Source of the DNA: Collinsella aerofaciens
Lineage (GTDB): Bacteria > Actinomycetota > Coriobacteriia > Coriobacteriales > Coriobacteriaceae
Reading direction: 5' to 3'
DNA: 64,000 nucleotides
Assembly (NCBI RefSeq): GCF_015552075.1
Contig: NZ_JADNDZ010000052.1
Location: 1 to 64,000 of the forward strand
Shown: piece by piece, positions 15,981 through 48,498 of the stretch
Numbering within the stretch: the first letter of the stretch is position 1
Layout of the letters: each line of letters begins with the position of its first letter
Position numbers and translations under genes: made by a program
Notes under the pieces: model-generated
What the model saw: the letters and a program-made list of their open reading frames with translations, nothing else
What the model was told of the DNA's origin: nothing
The model's database searches: none

Positions 15981-18284
15981 TCACGGTCGCTGGCATCGCA
16001 TCGCAAAGCCATTCGCAGTCGGTGTGACGGTAATGTCGCCGTGTTCGATGGTACACGCGAACACACCACCCGCTTCCTTAACGGCATCGATGCAGGCATC
16101 GGACGGATGGCCGTATCGATTCCCCTCACCGGCGCTTGCGAGGGAAAGCTCGGGCTTCAGGACGTCCAGCAACTCGCCATCGACTGAAACCTTGGAGCCG
16201 TGATGCCCAAGTTTAAGGATATCGATATCCCCCACCTCCTGCACGAATTCCCGCTCTTGGTCGAGCTCGGCATCACCGGTGAGGAGCATACGCAGGCCCT
16301 TGCCTTCCTGAACATAAGAGAGCAGAAGGACAAGCGAGTCCTCATTTCCCTCGCCATCCACGGACTCGAATGGCCACATCACGCGAGCGCAAAATGAGCC
16401 GATGTCGACCGTATCCCCACGGCGCACCTGCCGATACTCCACGCCAGGTCGGTTCAATACCTCGGCAGGAGCATCCTCCAGCGCATCCGCCGCCACGGCA
16501 ATCGTTCCGACCGAAAACTGTTCGAGCACGGCAGGCAAACCACCCCAGTGGTCCTCATCCCAATGCGTCACAAAAACGGCATCGATATGGTGCACGTTAT
16601 TGCGAACCAACGCCGCAACCACACGCTCGTCGAGCCCGCAGTCGACAAGTGCAACTGCGCCGCCCTGGCGGATAAGAATCGCATCGGCCTGGCCCACATC
16701 GAGCACCGTCACCGAAGGCGGAGCGAATCGATCCCAATAGACGTACGGAATCGCAGCCAAGAGCATCAGGCATGCAAGCCCCACCGCCATAGGACGTGCA
16801 CGGGGACGCGGCCACCAGACCAGCAGAACCGCCAGAAAACACGGCACTAGGTAAATCCACATGCTATCGGGCGGCACGCTCACGTATGCACCCGGCACGG
16901 CGGCAAACAGTTGCTCGAAGAACAGCGCGCAACGGGCGGCAATCATGGGCACAACGAGCGCCCAAGTCCGCAACGGTGCCACGAACGAAAAGGGAACCAG
17001 CACGATCGACACAGCGAGCAGTACGCTCACCACCGGACCGAGGACCGCATTTGCCAACGGAGCAATGAGCGAGAATGTACCGAAGGCAGGAATGGTAATG
17101 GGAAGTGTCGCCAGTTGCGAGCACAGCGTGACGGAAAGCACGCTGGCAACGCCCGATGGCACACCTAGCTCACCCAACGCGTAGGTCGCATAGGGACAAA
17201 AGCACAGAATGGCTAAGACGCTGGCGCATGAAAGCTGAAAGCCCATCTCGAACAGCACCGTCGGCCGCAGTAGCACAAAGATGGACATGGTTACGAAGAG
17301 TGCCGAAAGGCCGTGCCGACGACGCCCCGCGCCGTTTACGACAAGCGTCACGAACACCATGCAGCACGCGCGCACGGCCGAGGGAGACGCGCCCGTAAAG
17401 GCAGCGTAGCCCACAAGCGTTATCGCCAATATCGCCCGCTGAAGACCACGTGAGCACCGAGTCTTTTGCAATACACCCTCGATTACAAAGCCCACGATAG
17501 CCAAATGGCTGCCCGAGACTGCGATAAGATGCGCCGTTCCCGTCACCGAAAACCAGTCGCCCGCCGGCTGGGCGCGCAGCTCGGCCGAACGACCGCAGAC
17601 GACACCGGCTATGAGCGCACGCGCCGGGTCGGTCGCAGGCGCGATGGACGCAAGCAGCCCATTTCGCAGCCGAAGCAGCGGCCTCGGAGAACCCTCATCG
17701 ACCGACACGACTCGAACGGCTTTAACCTTGCGCACCTCGCCTCGAAGCACGCGCGATCGTCCATACGCATCGTTCTCAAAACGTGACACGCGACCGATAA
17801 CACGCACGTGCGCCCCGACCTTGAACTCACGGTCACACGATAGGCGAACCGTTGCCAAGTTCTTACCGTCCGAGCGTGCCTCGCAGGTATAGGAATACAC
17901 GTCGTCATTTATGGATGGGTCACCCTGCACGACAAACTCGAGACTGCTTGCCGCTCGACCGTCGAGCGTCTTCGAGGCGTTGAGCGCACCCACGGCCCAC
18001 CACGCCGAAACGACCGCACCCGCTATGAGACCGACGGACGCGGCATACAGCCACCGCTTCAAAGGGGCAAGCCTCGCACAAGAGTGAGCCAGCACAACGA
18101 AAACCGCTGCCGCAACGGGAATGGCCCATAGCGGCCCGACCGCCGTCGCCCGCTCCCTCAGCAGCGCATCAGCGGCTATGCTGAGCACCAAGGCGCAGCT
18201 CACGCACATGCCGGCACACAGGGCCATCGTCCACGGAATCAGGGGCCGCGGAGGCATCACGTGCTCTCGTTCGGTCGCACTCAT
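15981..18284 (-). CDS. comEC: ComEC/Rec2 DNA-uptake channel protein
   Basis: Polytopic membrane protein that passes single-stranded DNA into the cytoplasm during natural transformation. The 767-aa product has two N-terminal helices and a DUF4131-like region, a multi-helix competence domain (~220-500) containing the HLIAVSGSHLAIVGF stretch, and a C-terminal metallo-beta-lactamase fold with THWDEDHWGG and LGHHGSK. The ATG (MSATEREH) overlaps the comEA stop as ATGA, indicating coupled translation. The MBL His/Asp ligands look intact, consistent with a nuclease role. It is followed by holA. Confidence 0.94.
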   Translation of the reverse strand: MSATEREHVMPPRPLIPWTMALCAGMCVSCALVLSIAADALLRERATAVGPLWAIPVAAAVFVVLAHSCARLAPLKRWLYAASVGLIAGAVVSAWWAVGALNASKTLDGRAASSLEFVVQGDPSINDDVYSYTCEARSDGKNLATVRLSCDREFKVGAHVRVIGRVSRFENDAYGRSRVLRGEVRKVKAVRVVSVDEGSPRPLLRLRNGLLASIAPATDPARALIAGVVCGRSAELRAQPAGDWFSVTGTAHLIAVSGSHLAIVGFVIEGVLQKTRCSRGLQRAILAITLVGYAAFTGASPSAVRACCMVFVTLVVNGAGRRRHGLSALFVTMSIFVLLRPTVLFEMGFQLSCASVLAILCFCPYATYALGELGVPSGVASVLSVTLCSQLATLPITIPAFGTFSLIAPLANAVLGPVVSVLLAVSIVLVPFSFVAPLRTWALVVPMIAARCALFFEQLFAAVPGAYVSVPPDSMWIYLVPCFLAVLLVWWPRPRARPMAVGLACLMLLAAIPYVYWDRFAPPSVTVLDVGQADAILIRQGGAVALVDCGLDERVVAALVRNNVHHIDAVFVTHWDEDHWGGLPAVLEQFSVGTIAVAADALEDAPAEVLNRPGVEYRQVRRGDTVDIGSFCARVMWPFESVDGEGNEDSLVLLLSYVQEGKGLRMLLTGDAELDQEREFVQEVGDIDILKLGHHGSKVSVDGELLDVLKPELSLASAGEGNRYGHPSDACIDAVKEAGGVFACTIEHGDITVTPTANGFAMRCQRP

Positions 18285-18991
18285 ACGCAGATGCAATCTT
18301 TGATTTTGGCAAGTTTTTTCTCACCGATCCCCGATACGCGCATGAGGTCATCGACCGAGGTAAAAGCCCCGTTTTGCGTCCGCTCGTCGATAATCGATTG
18401 AGCCATAGAAGGCCCGATGCCCGAAAGCGTCTGCAGCTCCGCCGCACTTGCCGTATTGATGTTCACGAGTCCCGACGAAGACCCCACACCAGAAGTCGCG
18501 GCGGCACCGCTTTCGCCCCCGCCGACCGCCGCAGCCGCTTGTTGCTCCCCCACCGCCGGAACATAGATCTTTTGTCCATCCGTGATCTTGGACGCGCGAT
18601 TAAGCCCTGTCACATCCGCCTCGGCCGTAAGCCCTCCGGCGGCGTCGATCGCTTGGGATACCCGTGCTCCATCTTTGAGCCGGTAAACGCCAGGCCTCAC
18701 AACGGCGCCATCAACATCGACGTACACCTCGGCAGCAGAAGAGCTCTTGTCAGACGACTCATCGGCATCGTCAGGTGACGCATCCCCGGCCCCGCGCACA
18801 TCCGAGGCGCCCGCCTCATCGCTACGTTCAAACGACACGTCGCTGGAGTGGCCACCAAAACCTGCTATCGCCAAGCCGCTCGCGGCGGCAATGACAACCA
18901 GAATCGCCAGGACCATCGCCTTGTGGCCGAGCAGCTTTTCTGCCCAGCGGTCCATCCGTTTAACCCGTTCGTGTTGCTCGCGCTGCGCCAT
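18281..18991 (-). CDS. comEA: ComEA DNA receptor for competence
   Basis: Membrane-anchored dsDNA receptor of the transformation machinery. The 236-aa product has a cytoplasmic start, one helix at about 25-44, a Ser/Asp-rich linker, an SLBB domain (VYVDVDGAVVRPGVYRL onward, ~85-145) and C-terminal paired helix-hairpin-helix motifs (VNINTASAAELQTLSGIG and VDDLMRVSGIGEKKLAKI). The ATG of MAQREQ has GGGAGGTG upstream. A sequence 77 nt upstream is shared with the yraN-comM-dprA operon. comEC follows with a 4-nt overlap. Confidence 0.93.
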   Translation of the reverse strand: MAQREQHERVKRMDRWAEKLLGHKAMVLAILVVIAAASGLAIAGFGGHSSDVSFERSDEAGASDVRGAGDASPDDADESSDKSSSAAEVYVDVDGAVVRPGVYRLKDGARVSQAIDAAGGLTAEADVTGLNRASKITDGQKIYVPAVGEQQAAAAVGGGESGAAATSGVGSSSGLVNINTASAAELQTLSGIGPSMAQSIIDERTQNGAFTSVDDLMRVSGIGEKKLAKIKDCICV

Positions 18992-19067: not shown

Positions 19068-19087
19068 CAAACCAAAAGTTAACCAAA
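19068..19087 (-). promoter_or_regulatory. Candidate competence operator upstream of comEA
   Basis: Minus-strand sequence TTTGGTTAACTTTTGGTTTG contains two TTTGGT units 11 bp apart. It matches 18 of 20 positions of the sequence at 48430-48449, which sits at nearly the same distance upstream of yraN-comM-dprA. Both lie just after the terminator of the preceding gene. The regulator is unknown. Confidence 0.5.
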
Positions 19088-19162
19088 ACCTTGCGCAAAT
19101 GTGCCCGTTTATTCAGGCACACGTCAGCAAATGAACACTTAGCCGCAAAATGCCCAGATAGC

Positions 19163-45417: not shown

Positions 45418-46353
45418 CTAATTGACACGTTTTCCATTGTGACCGAAGGGCGTCTGGGCGTGAAGGGCAAACTTGGAGGGCGCATACCTTCCATCCATCA
45501 TGCGCTCGATAAGGCCCTCGAGTTCAAGCGAACCCAGGAGTTTGAGTACGCCGGCAGCATCGAGCGAGACGAGCGCCGCGATGTCGTCGACCTTGAGCGG
45601 AGAGGCGATGAGCGCATGCATCACGGTCTGCTGCGTTGGATCCAGGTCGGCAATGCCGGGAGCATCGGGGCGCGAGTAGCGCAGGGTTCCGTAGATGCGT
45701 GAGATAGCCATCTCGATAGATTCCTCGTCGACGATGCAGCAGGCACCGTTCGCAATGAGGTAATTCGTGCCACGCGACTCGGGCGATAGGATCGACCCCG
45801 GCACGGCAAGAAGTTCGCGCCCCAAATCCATAGCAGCCTCGGCTGTAGAAAACGTCCCGGAAGGCATACCCGCCTCGGATACAAAGAGGGCTTGCGACAG
45901 GGCCGCGATCACGCGATTGCGGCGCGGAAAGGCAAACTTGCGCGGACCCATGCCCCACGGAGAGATCGACACGACCGCGCCACCCGTATCGAGCGTGCGC
46001 GTAATAAGCCCCGCGCTCGAACGCGGATAGACCACGTCGGCGCCCGTCCCCAGCACCACGACGTGTTTGCCGCCGGCGTTGACCACAGCCCAACCCGAGG
46101 CCTGGTCACAACCGACCGCGCCGCCCGAAACAACCGTCACTCCTGCCTCGATCGCCACCTTCGCCGCAAGCTCTGCCACGGCAAGACCATACGGCGAGGC
46201 CTTGCGCGCGCCGATGATGGAGAGCGCGGGCGTCGAAAGTACCTCGGGGTTGCCGCGCACATAAAGCGTCTGGGGTATATCAGAAAGCTCCAAAACGGTC
46301 TCGGGATACAACGCATCGCCTGGATGCAGCTCGAAGGTTCCCTCGGCCATCAT
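45418..46353 (-). CDS. dprA: DNA processing protein DprA
   Basis: Loads RecA onto incoming single-stranded DNA during transformation. The 311-aa product has the Rossmann-like core (SGGAVGCDQASGWAVVNAGG, VLGTGADVVYP, FPRRNRVIAALSQALFVSEA) and a C-terminal winged helix (~245-300). An N-terminal SAM domain found in some homologues is absent or very short. The first ATG of MMAEGTF overlaps the comM stop as ATGA, with GGAGG 5 nt upstream. It is part of yraN-comM-dprA, which carries the candidate competence operator. Confidence 0.94.
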   Translation of the reverse strand: MMAEGTFELHPGDALYPETVLELSDIPQTLYVRGNPEVLSTPALSIIGARKASPYGLAVAELAAKVAIEAGVTVVSGGAVGCDQASGWAVVNAGGKHVVVLGTGADVVYPRSSAGLITRTLDTGGAVVSISPWGMGPRKFAFPRRNRVIAALSQALFVSEAGMPSGTFSTAEAAMDLGRELLAVPGSILSPESRGTNYLIANGACCIVDEESIEMAISRIYGTLRYSRPDAPGIADLDPTQQTVMHALIASPLKVDDIAALVSLDAAGVLKLLGSLELEGLIERMMDGRYAPSKFALHAQTPFGHNGKRVN

Positions 46354-47873
46354 TGGTCCCTCCTTCCCTGGTACATCGCCGCCTCGAGCACGTGGTCCTG
46401 CGTCACTTGCTCGCTCTCGGCGACATCTGCGATCGTACGCGCAATGCGAACCAGGCGCACGGTGCCACGCCCTGTGAGATGTGTGCGTTTGGACAGGCCG
46501 AGTACGCATTTCTCGGCAGCATCATCGAGCTCAAAGGTCGAAACGACGCCGTCAATGGACCGCGTCTCGTCATCCTCGGCCTCGGCATCCGCATCGTCCA
46601 TACGGGATTCGCGCCAAGCGCGAAAAGCGCGACCGCGCACAACGTAGTCACGTAACTCGGCCGACGACATACCCTCCGCGCCCTCGATAATCACCTGAGG
46701 GTCGGGACGAGTCACATCGATCATCATGTCGATACGGTCGGCCAAAGGACCGCGCAGCTTTGCCCGATAGCGCTCGACCATCGCCGCCGAGCAGCGACAC
46801 GGTACCTCGCGATCGCCCAAAAAGCCGCAGGGGCAGGGATTGCTCGCAGCGAGCAGCTGAAAGCGCGACGGGAAGGTAAAGGCCCCGTCGACGCGTACGA
46901 TCCTCACATAACCGCGTTCGATGGGCTGACGCAGCGCCTGCAGTACACCCGTGGGAAACTCGGCAAGCTCGTCCAAAAAGAGCACGCCGCCATGAGCCAG
47001 GCTAATTTCGCCCGGATGCACTGGACGTCCGCCGCCGATGAGGCCCGCGGTCGAAATGCTGTGATGCGGGCTGCGGAAGGGGCGATGCCCCGCAAGCAGT
47101 CCATCGATGTTCTCACCCAAAACCGAATGGATGCACAGCGCCTCCTGTTGATCCTCAACGGAAAGCTCGGGCAGGATGCCGGTCATACGGCGCGCAAGCA
47201 TCGTCTTGCCCGATCCCGGGGACCCAATCATGAGCAAGCCGAGTTCTCCTGCCGCCGCAAGCGCCATGCCGCGTTTAGCGACTTCCTGCCCCAGCACGTC
47301 TGCATAGTCGAGCTCAGGCTCAAAGGTCGCCTCGACGCCCTCAGAATCCAAGTAGTGCCGCGCGGCATCGCCCATACCATGAGCAAGCTGAGACAAATGA
47401 TCGATGAATCCACAATCCACGCCCGCGAGTGGCACATGCTGGTCGGACCTGCCGGCGATAAAAGACAGCCCCATATCACGCGCCAATAGTTGAAACGCCA
47501 CCTCGCCCTTGACGGGAAGCACCGTACCGTCCAGACCAAGCTCACCTGCGATAAGGCAGCGATCGAGGTTGTCACGGGGAATCTGCCCATCGGCCGCCAA
47601 TACCGCGATGGCGATGGGCAGGTCAAAGCCGCTACCGGTCTTGCGGATATCGCCGGGTGCCAGGTTAACGGTAATGCCCGAGCGTGGGATCTCGAACCCG
47701 GCGGAGCGCATCGCACAACGAATACGACCACGTGACTCCATCACCTCCATACTCGGAATGCCGAGCATCTGGATGCCCGGGATGCCACCGGCAAGCGAGA
47801 CCTCGACCGTGACGTGAATCGCCTCGACGCCGCGGATGCAGGCCGCGTGAACGGCAAACGTCTCGAACGCCAT
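46350..47873 (-). CDS. comM: ComM/YifB AAA+ helicase (Mg chelatase-like)
   Basis: Hexameric helicase that promotes branch migration during natural transformation. The 507-aa product has an N-terminal Lon-protease-like ChlI domain (~20-145), Walker A GSPGSGKTMLARRM (~215-229), Walker B GGVLFLDELAEF and a C-terminal Mg-chelatase domain with four zinc-type Cys in NPCPCGF...PCRC. The ATG shares a base with the yraN stop (TGATG) and its own stop overlaps dprA. Confidence 0.93.
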   Translation of the reverse strand: MAFETFAVHAACIRGVEAIHVTVEVSLAGGIPGIQMLGIPSMEVMESRGRIRCAMRSAGFEIPRSGITVNLAPGDIRKTGSGFDLPIAIAVLAADGQIPRDNLDRCLIAGELGLDGTVLPVKGEVAFQLLARDMGLSFIAGRSDQHVPLAGVDCGFIDHLSQLAHGMGDAARHYLDSEGVEATFEPELDYADVLGQEVAKRGMALAAAGELGLLMIGSPGSGKTMLARRMTGILPELSVEDQQEALCIHSVLGENIDGLLAGHRPFRSPHHSISTAGLIGGGRPVHPGEISLAHGGVLFLDELAEFPTGVLQALRQPIERGYVRIVRVDGAFTFPSRFQLLAASNPCPCGFLGDREVPCRCSAAMVERYRAKLRGPLADRIDMMIDVTRPDPQVIIEGAEGMSSAELRDYVVRGRAFRAWRESRMDDADAEAEDDETRSIDGVVSTFELDDAAEKCVLGLSKRTHLTGRGTVRLVRIARTIADVAESEQVTQDHVLEAAMYQGRRDQ

Positions 47874-48358
47874 CACGACACCTGCCAATCGAACGCGCTG
47901 TACTGGTGCTCGATCTCGGCGATATGCCCGCCGCGAATGGTGACGCCCACGGCATCGAAGCGAATCGCCTTGAGCGGATAATGCTCCATGAGATAGCAGC
48001 TTGCGATGCGGCGGTAGCGGCGTTGCTTTTGGGCATCCACGGCCTCCTCGGGAAAGACCCGCGTGGTGCAATCCAGGGCGACGCGTCTCGTCTTGACCTC
48101 GGCCATCACAACGACATCGTCGAGCTCATCGAGCAGCACCAGGTCGGCCTCGCCCTCGGTGCAACGATAGCCCTGCTCCAGCAAGGTGTAGCCGCGCTCG
48201 TTAAAGTAGTCGATTGCGATAAGCTCACCCAGCATGCCCAGCTCGCGAGGACTGAGTCCCTTGATAAACTCGGGCGTCATCGCTCCGCAGTCGAGCTCGC
48301 CGTTTTCCCAACGCTCTTTGAGCTGCTGCGTCTTGCTCTTTTTGCTTGCGGCACTCAT
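47873..48358 (-). CDS. yraN: YraN/UPF0102 nuclease-like protein
   Basis: Restriction-endonuclease-fold protein of unproven function, often found beside comM-dprA and rnhB. The 161-aa product has GMLGELIAIDYFNERGY, then the PD-(D/E)xK-like core GEADLVLLDELDDVVVMAEVKTR with acidic and Lys residues in place. A 40-residue N-terminal extension (~1-40, starting MSAASKKSKTQQLKER) is longer than in the ~120-aa family. The ATG has AAAGGAGA upstream. It heads the comM-dprA operon and shares a candidate operator with comEA. Confidence 0.88.
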   Translation of the reverse strand: MSAASKKSKTQQLKERWENGELDCGAMTPEFIKGLSPRELGMLGELIAIDYFNERGYTLLEQGYRCTEGEADLVLLDELDDVVVMAEVKTRRVALDCTTRVFPEEAVDAQKQRRYRRIASCYLMEHYPLKAIRFDAVGVTIRGGHIAEIEHQYSAFDWQVS

Positions 48359-48429
48359 GGGGTCTCCTTTCCCGCACACTGCATTGCCCCGATGATGAGG
48401 GCACCTTTCATGCGGGTAAGTACCGGAAG

Positions 48430-48449
48430 CAAACCAAAAGCTGACCAAA
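48430..48449 (-). promoter_or_regulatory. Candidate competence operator upstream of yraN-comM-dprA
   Basis: Minus-strand TTTGGTCAGCTTTTGGTTTG, 72 nt before the yraN start, differs at only two positions from the copy before comEA. It has two TTTGGT units 11 bp apart, and lies directly after the rnhB terminator. Confidence 0.5.
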
Positions 48450-48456
48450 TGCCGAC

Positions 48457-48498
48457 AAAAAACGGGCCGTACGCAGCGATGGTGTTGCATACGGCCCG
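48457..48498 (-). terminator. Terminator of rnhB
   Basis: A 13-bp stem (CGGGCCGTACGCA with TGCATACGGCCCG, one wobble) followed by TTTTTT on the minus strand. Confidence 0.9.

Follow-up and report, generated by a model that had tools for sequence, protein, structure and literature searches.

How the genes for DNA uptake are controlled in Collinsella aerofaciens is a question raised by two short and nearly identical elements in a stretch of 64,000 nucleotides (contig NZ_JADNDZ010000052.1, positions 1 to 64,000, hereafter the window), one in front of comEA-comEC and the other in front of yraN-comM-dprA. Late-competence regulons in which shared sites precede comEA-comEC, dprA, ssb, recA and a pilus operon exist in Bacillus (ComK) and in streptococci (SigX/ComX). 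Among the literature matches listed, none is by title devoted to natural transformation in Collinsella or to how it is controlled, and in a whole-word search comEA, SARP and competence were not treated together. A preliminary description of the window read the pair as the site of an undescribed competence activator or of an alternative sigma factor.

The paired elements of the window

Both elements were found on the minus strand where they had been described, as 20-mers at 19068-19087 and 48430-48449 that are alike at 18 of 20 positions, and each contains two TTTGGT units spaced 11 bp. The distances claimed to the start codons, 77 nt for comEA (ATG at 18991) and 72 nt for yraN (ATG at 48358), are exact. 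Terminator-like hairpins of the genes on the 5' side, identified by Pfam as thiI and rnhB, are located between those genes and the 20-mers (judged by eye), and the competence identities assigned downstream were borne out by Pfam matches to ComEA-type SLBB and helix-hairpin-helix domains, ComEC, UPF0102 (YraN), ComM-type Mg_chelatase and DprA. Nor is there a third copy in the window, since TTTGGTNANCTTTTGGTTTG with up to 3 mismatches matches exactly two sites; shuffled windows gave a mean of 0.03 matches, and two were reached in none of 100 shuffles.

The 20-mers are part of a larger element composed of 2 to 5 tandem 11-bp units with the consensus CGTCAAGCN-TTTGGTCAGCN-TTTGGTTTG. Further units in the same 11-bp phase flank both of them, namely an extra unit on the 5' side of each and an additional 3' unit at yraN only. 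The features of the two loci are as follows, all on the minus strand.

19068..19087, minus: 20-mer with two 11-bp-phased units, 5' of comEA-comEC (PWM score 39.6; 76 nt from the end of the 31-mer to comEA)
19088..19098, minus: extra upstream 11-bp unit TTGCGCAAGGT of the comEA element (GCAAGGT kept in the comEA orthologues displayed)
18281..18991, minus: comEA, SLBB and helix-hairpin-helix (Pfam)
15981..18296, minus: comEC, Competence and metallo-beta-lactamase domains, start codon not established (Pfam)
48430..48449, minus: second 20-mer with two 11-bp-phased units, 5' of yraN-comM-dprA (PWM score 41.1; 71 nt from the end of the 31-mer to yraN)
48450..48460, minus: extra upstream unit TTTTGTCGGCA of the yraN element, in the same phase (from the sequence)
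48417..48427, minus: extra downstream unit TCCGGTACTTA of the yraN element, in the same phase (from the sequence)
48407..48412, minus: CATGAA, an inferred, possible -10, 8 bp past the last heptamer of the yraN element
47873..48358, minus: yraN, UPF0102 (Pfam)
46350..47933, minus: comM, Mg_chelatase/ChlI, start not established (Pfam; homologues in 7 of 7 genomes asked)
45418..46509, minus: dprA (Pfam)

Copies in the source genome and in the C. aerofaciens group

A pattern derived from the two window sites alone, with up to 3 mismatches allowed, was searched against the source genome (2.32 Mb, 126 contigs) and gave nine matches, seven of them beyond the window pair, compared with one for the reversed control. 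The preliminary description had called for such a search among late competence genes, and ssb, recA and a Tad/Flp pilus operon were indeed met: three of the seven new matches precede rpsF-ssb, recA and the rcpC (Flp/Tad pilus) operon, with ssb and recA confirmed by Pfam and rpsF named from its sequence. Further genes of the rcpC operon encode a ParA-like protein, a TadA-type ATPase and a T2SSF protein, and the operon also holds Flp1-like and TadE matches that are weak and below threshold. Of the other four matches, one precedes a gene with a sub-threshold HTH_11 match, one a 235-aa gene for which Pfam gave nothing at E<=0.01, one a transposase-like gene (Y1_Tnp) and one a nitroreductase gene. 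The last (G000:C117, L008) was left undecided and not counted as a target: its leader is TTTGG-rich in general, and the relatives G124 and G168 carry TTTGGGTAC repeats there. The chance of three of seven new matches falling at DNA-processing or pilus operons was estimated at 5e-7 to 2e-4, a range that depends on operon numbers which are assumptions; the estimate was taken from the window-only pattern and not from a hypergeometric calculation on the R1 model described below, since R1 was partly trained on the same sites.

R1 is a sequence-only model of 31 columns built from 29 sites. Whole-genome R1 searches score the best 150 first-look candidates per genome, so weak sites may be missed. The source genome yielded 20 matches at E<=10, of which 15, falling in 14 regions, were at E<=0.1; 14 of these 15 face an immediately downstream ORF, and the remaining one is a reversed partner at rcpC. 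In 10 of these regions the site of the source genome had itself been used for training, only C33, C56, C66 and C77 being new, and sites orthologous to those of C56 and C77 had also been in the training set. Regions added by R1 are those of a 148-aa gene with an rmuC-like ORF behind it (a name read from the sequence), putative nuclease-like genes (with sub-threshold MTES_1575/DUF559 matches in some relatives), a small exported-protein operon (our own reading) and prmC (NCBIfam). The five matches at E 0.26-2.9 comprise one in C45, a second piece of the yraN site, a reversed one at prmC, one at a SpaA-type surface-protein gene (identified by Pfam on the G010 relative) and one upstream of a gene for an NTPase/BTAD protein. 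The match in C45 (E 0.26) lies within an MFS-like ORF by our own reading and was taken as chance.

Several side observations concern the accessory box-bearing genes. The Y1_Tnp gene, which has a C-terminal HTH and a sub-threshold NCBIfam match to the REP-associated type, carries a box in the source genome, G007 and G014 (L007/L044, L194, L199). At L048 an accessory gene with a box is flanked by the hairpin-like inverted repeats GGTGAAATACGGACTG and CAGTCCGTATTTCACC, an arrangement resembling a small mobile cassette. Variable proteins of about 320-400 aa share the box at L038, L047, L048, L052, L055, L197 and L198; some have weak restriction-endonuclease-like (MTES_1575/DUF559) matches, and a role in defence or DNA processing is possible. 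A LexA-like palindrome (CGAAC...GTTCG) apparently stands between the box and recA in the source genome and in G201 (L009, L273; by eye).

Among 29 genomes including the source, the pattern found a match in 20, and in genomes of other families its matches showed no excess over the reversed control. R1, applied to 17 genomes of the same genus, gave 9-17 matches in 10 of them and none at E<=0.1 in the other seven. The preliminary description had made its reading depend on conservation at both window genes in related genomes, and this was found at comEA in 11 of 11 and at yraN in 10 of 11. The comEA site lies 76-77 nt 5' of the ATG in all 11 (orthologous sites checked by coordinates). The rpsF box is present in 11 of 11 by tblastn, 166 nt from the end of the 31-mer, and the rcpC box in 11 of 11 clade genomes; the yraN and recA boxes were found in 10 of 11 each, and both misses coincide with contig ends (yraN in G003, recA in G002). 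Core spacings are near-constant at 75-76 nt for comEA, 71 for yraN, 166 for rpsF and 103 for rcpC (108 in G012). At rcpC a reversed box lies about 14 bp farther upstream of the forward one, back-to-back with it, in 11 of 11 (L006, L031, L181, L183, L209).

These assignments differ in how they were checked. For rcpC, tblastn was used in the source genome, G006, G010, G012 and G014, and the assignment in G002, G003, G004, G007, G009 and G011 rests on identical site sequence only. For yraN, tblastn was used in the source genome, G002, G004, G006, G009 and G014, reading in G012, and position 28-29 kb from comEA in G007, G010 and G011. The recA site was checked by tblastn in the source genome only and by sequence plus position 28-29 kb from comEA in nine others. 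In G002 the comEA matches (G002:C33:72810-73519) come in two pieces in different frames, and this copy may be frameshifted. On the genomes compared, the exact box sequence is restricted to the C. aerofaciens group.

On these observed sites, positions and target identities, and on their conservation, the element is very probably the operator of a competence (natural-transformation) regulon of the C. aerofaciens group; binding, activation and transformation itself are inferred, without data. The activator half of the preliminary reading is supported by the ssb, recA and Tad matches and by conservation, while its sigma factor option is disfavoured for reasons given below.

Eleven-bp phasing beyond the TTTGG box

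The seven genomes of the same genus without the TTTGG box retain comEA (42-53% identity), comM (60-64%), TadA (69-76%), rpsF and recA. Phasing was examined in these genomes in 35 regions of 300 nt each, before comEA, yraN, rpsF, recA and rcpC. At lag 11 self-similarity was higher than the average over the remaining lags in the range 7-20 (p=5.5e-5, 35 regions). By the same measure there was no signal farther upstream, at 300-600 nt (n=35) or at 600-900 nt (n=34), or in front of 51 other genes, and the comparison of targets with these other genes at lag 11 gave p=3.6e-5. The signal is collective, as single regions rank lag 11 first in 9 of 35 cases and none do so in G015. The units in these genomes are often GTCGG or TTCGG, and T[CT]GG pairs at lag 11 numbered 10 in the forward orientation, against 1.09 in shuffles, and 2 in reverse. 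The T[CT]GG count was chosen after looking, and the sequence-free lag tests are independent of that choice; lag 11 as an idea originated with the preliminary description. In these seven genomes, as far as the sequences can tell, only the 11-bp architecture before the same genes persists, and the sequence of the units differs.

Beyond the genus the picture is weaker. In a hold-out of 21 regions (comEA, rpsF) from other genera, lag 11 was less pronounced (p=0.018) and lag 15 nearly as high, and the TTGG/TCGG pairs all came from a single genome, G020 (three TTGG pairs). In that genome (L079), which belongs to another family, four TTTGGA units precede comEA in exact 11-bp phase; a TadA match is absent from it although comEA is preceded by these four units. 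In G201, from another genus, recA is preceded by three TTTGG in phase. An exact triple-TTTGG search of 296 genomes of the class gave 39 matches in 21 genomes, with 9 in 6 for the reversed control. Sixteen of the 21 bearing genomes belong to the same genus, where the match is by sequence mostly the recA site, and outside the genus the 5 matches in 5 genomes were not above control.

The putative regulator and its rivals

The repeats suggest how the element might be read. Two to five direct repeats, one per helical turn and in both orientations, suggest oligomeric binding of a winged-helix protein, with five units at recA. In the mechanism proposed, the 2-5 units would offer the same contacts to protein along a single face of the helix, and an OmpR-type winged-helix activator would bind there as a side-by-side oligomer and recruit RNA polymerase. 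Its targets would be the uptake channel (comEA-comEC), the Tad/Flp pilus (rcpC operon), DNA processing (yraN-comM-dprA, rpsF-ssb and recA) and accessory genes. The activator itself would be the protein of about 1000 aa whose gene was met above, which is NTPase-like (STAND-like) in its front part and ends in a SARP-like module of winged helix plus BTAD. We favour this protein as the activator of the regulon with some confidence; there are no binding or expression data, and the identity of the regulator, the direction of activation and the signal are all inferred.

The domains of this protein are observed as far as profiles reach. In six of six proteins scanned BTAD was above its cut-off (29.9-48.6 bits against 22.1) and sat at the end of a chain of 998-1184 aa; Trans_reg_C immediately precedes it in all six, below threshold (15.9-22.6 bits against 26.2), and NTPase matches were found in the front part of five, all below cut-off, and not in the sixth. 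In L109 and L110 the module spans residues ~765-987 of ~1000, with the NTPase-like part ahead. Comparison of the winged-helix profile with OmpR-type chains and EmbR was weak (E 0.13-0.33), phmmer of the module against the PDB returned nothing, and its AlphaFold model (pLDDT 50.3) was too poor for use. BTAD family matches occur in 26 of 29 genomes, singly in 25, and are not specific, since 6 of 14 control genomes had them too. A near-identical gene is present at 20 named loci, 19 of Collinsella (many of them C. aerofaciens) and one of a MAG that bears the label Leucobacter. Compared with intact relatives, the source copy (G000:C68) is frameshifted around residue 530 and interrupted by an in-frame TAG around residue 631 (L108:4583 and ~4883), differences that are either real or a sequencing error; its C-terminal part with winged helix and BTAD stays open over 368 aa.

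In 12 loci of the NTPase/BTAD gene R1 found 11 weak matches (11.1-14.1 bits). All are reversed and lie upstream of the gene at one of two positions; they occur in 9 of the loci, whereas three have no match. The 12 loci are related, and L112 and L128 are probably the same genome. In the seven TTTGG-less genomes no excess of the 11-bp signal was found 5' of this gene in either orientation. Reversed T[CT]GG pairs in the same seven regions peak at spacing 18 (6 pairs) and not at 11. Four clade proteins have almost the same presumed recognition helix, assigned by analogy with OmpR-type proteins, and three proteins from TTTGG-less genomes have a different one. A wider proposal, that the SARP-module protein is the competence master activator of Coriobacteriia, the first such in Actinomycetota, and that the 11-bp boxes diverged in sequence from species to species in step with its recognition helix, the set of genes served staying unchanged, we consider finely balanced between acceptance and rejection.

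The geometry of the box recalls SARP promoters, in which, according to the part of the published account available, direct repeats are 11 or 22 bp apart and the 3' repeat lies 8 bp from the -10 (PMC10936776). Like the SARP (afs) box of Streptomyces coelicolor AfsR, the Collinsella box has 11-bp direct repeats on one DNA face, and the putative activator would share with AfsR, a SARP with NOD and TPR domains, an NTPase-like part, a winged helix (like the NTPase, a sub-threshold match) and BTAD (PMC10936776, consulted in part). A possible -10 lies 8 bp past the last heptamer in four Collinsella target classes: CATGAA stands there at ssb, yraN, the L197 gene and the SpaA-type gene, the yraN copy of G012 having CAAGAA instead. 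When 16 target classes were examined together, however, no significant A/T peak marked a -10 (p=0.26). As far as the source available goes, there are also differences from AfsR, in that the Collinsella targets are competence, pilus and recombination genes and not antibiotic genes, the SARP-like module is C-terminal in the candidate but N-terminal in AfsR, and the Collinsella box has 2 to 5 units and no binding data. Large SARPs have an N-terminal SARP module with extra domains behind it. The module of the candidate being C-terminal, the protein may work in the manner of a SARP, but we do not class it with the large SARPs of the AfsR type.

The same regulon could instead be governed by a protein of about 264 aa with an HTH_11 match, encoded downstream of asnS (G000:C57), which would control itself together with the competence genes and might respond to DNA, as is reported for other WYL regulators. 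A strong forward box lies 137-138 nt upstream of its gene in five genomes by tblastn (the source, G007, G011, G012 and G014; the search covered the source and four clade genomes, not the other six), and a match at E<=0.001 was found in none of the seven TTTGG-less genomes of the genus, so that it tracks the box better than the NTPase/BTAD protein does. On the portions of the sources at hand, genes for DNA damage and phage defence have WYL regulators elsewhere. We nevertheless consider this assignment unlikely: genomes that lack the protein still have 11-bp-phased repeats in front of these genes, its HTH_11 match is below threshold (18.9 bits against 25), WYL was not detected by Pfam and its C-terminal part is WYL-like by eye only, and the gene may simply be a target. 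The SARP-like candidate was preferred because the phasing survives without the HTH_11 protein and the geometry is one described for SARPs. The PafBC box, as far as is known, differs in architecture from the Collinsella box. PafBC, an activator of the WYL-domain type, serves the mycobacterial DNA-damage response (PMC6789036, available in part), and is alike in its link to DNA-damage genes; one member of the Collinsella regulon may be WYL-like.

Direct repeats about one turn apart also fit OmpR/PhoB-type response regulators, and the regulon might be bound by another OmpR-type protein, such as an ordinary response regulator, or by an unknown regulator. This is improbable in our judgement, as no further regulator gene was recognised in the hit regions examined, although response regulators were not surveyed. 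We give little credence to the view that the box is a stress or DNA-repair operator with the competence genes only a part of its targets. The presence of recA, ssb, the 148-aa gene with its rmuC-like ORF and prmC among the targets speaks for it, as would the apparent LexA-like palindrome near recA, judged by eye, in the source genome and G201; against it, we know of no repair role for comEA-comEC or the Tad pilus, and competence regulons elsewhere include ssb and recA. A promoter for an alternative sigma factor, the second option of the preliminary description, is hard to sustain, and an activator is preferred, because the number of 11-bp units varies from 2 to 5 and reversed copies exist, unlike a -35/-10 pair; nor was a constant -10 found. 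A chance or mobile repeat can practically be ruled out, being contradicted by the near-constant spacing, the conservation and the shuffle and reversed-pattern controls, on which a chance origin was rejected.

The target set resembles that of the ComK and SigX regulons, but Collinsella has a Tad/Flp pilus instead of the ComG pilus, and the candidate regulator is unrelated. A parallel may also be sought in Micrococcus luteus, also of the Actinomycetota, in which tad genes are required for transformation (PMC4322843) and mutants with altered comEA/EC promoter activity show that transcription of these genes is regulated (PMC8467076); the signals or cascade controlling its competence remain to be identified (PMC12849477), and no cis element was found described there in the portions of these sources that were available.

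The box, if the regulon is as inferred, points to a coordinated and so far undescribed switch for the uptake of foreign DNA. With a target list and two candidate regulators at hand besides the box, competence can be tested directly in a genus that is dominant in the human gut. Shared control would tie Tad/Flp pili to DNA uptake in the Collinsella group and could lead to genetic tools and to a better understanding of gene exchange in the gut. If the SARP-like regulator holds true, control of the SARP type, known from antibiotic clusters, would also cover DNA uptake.
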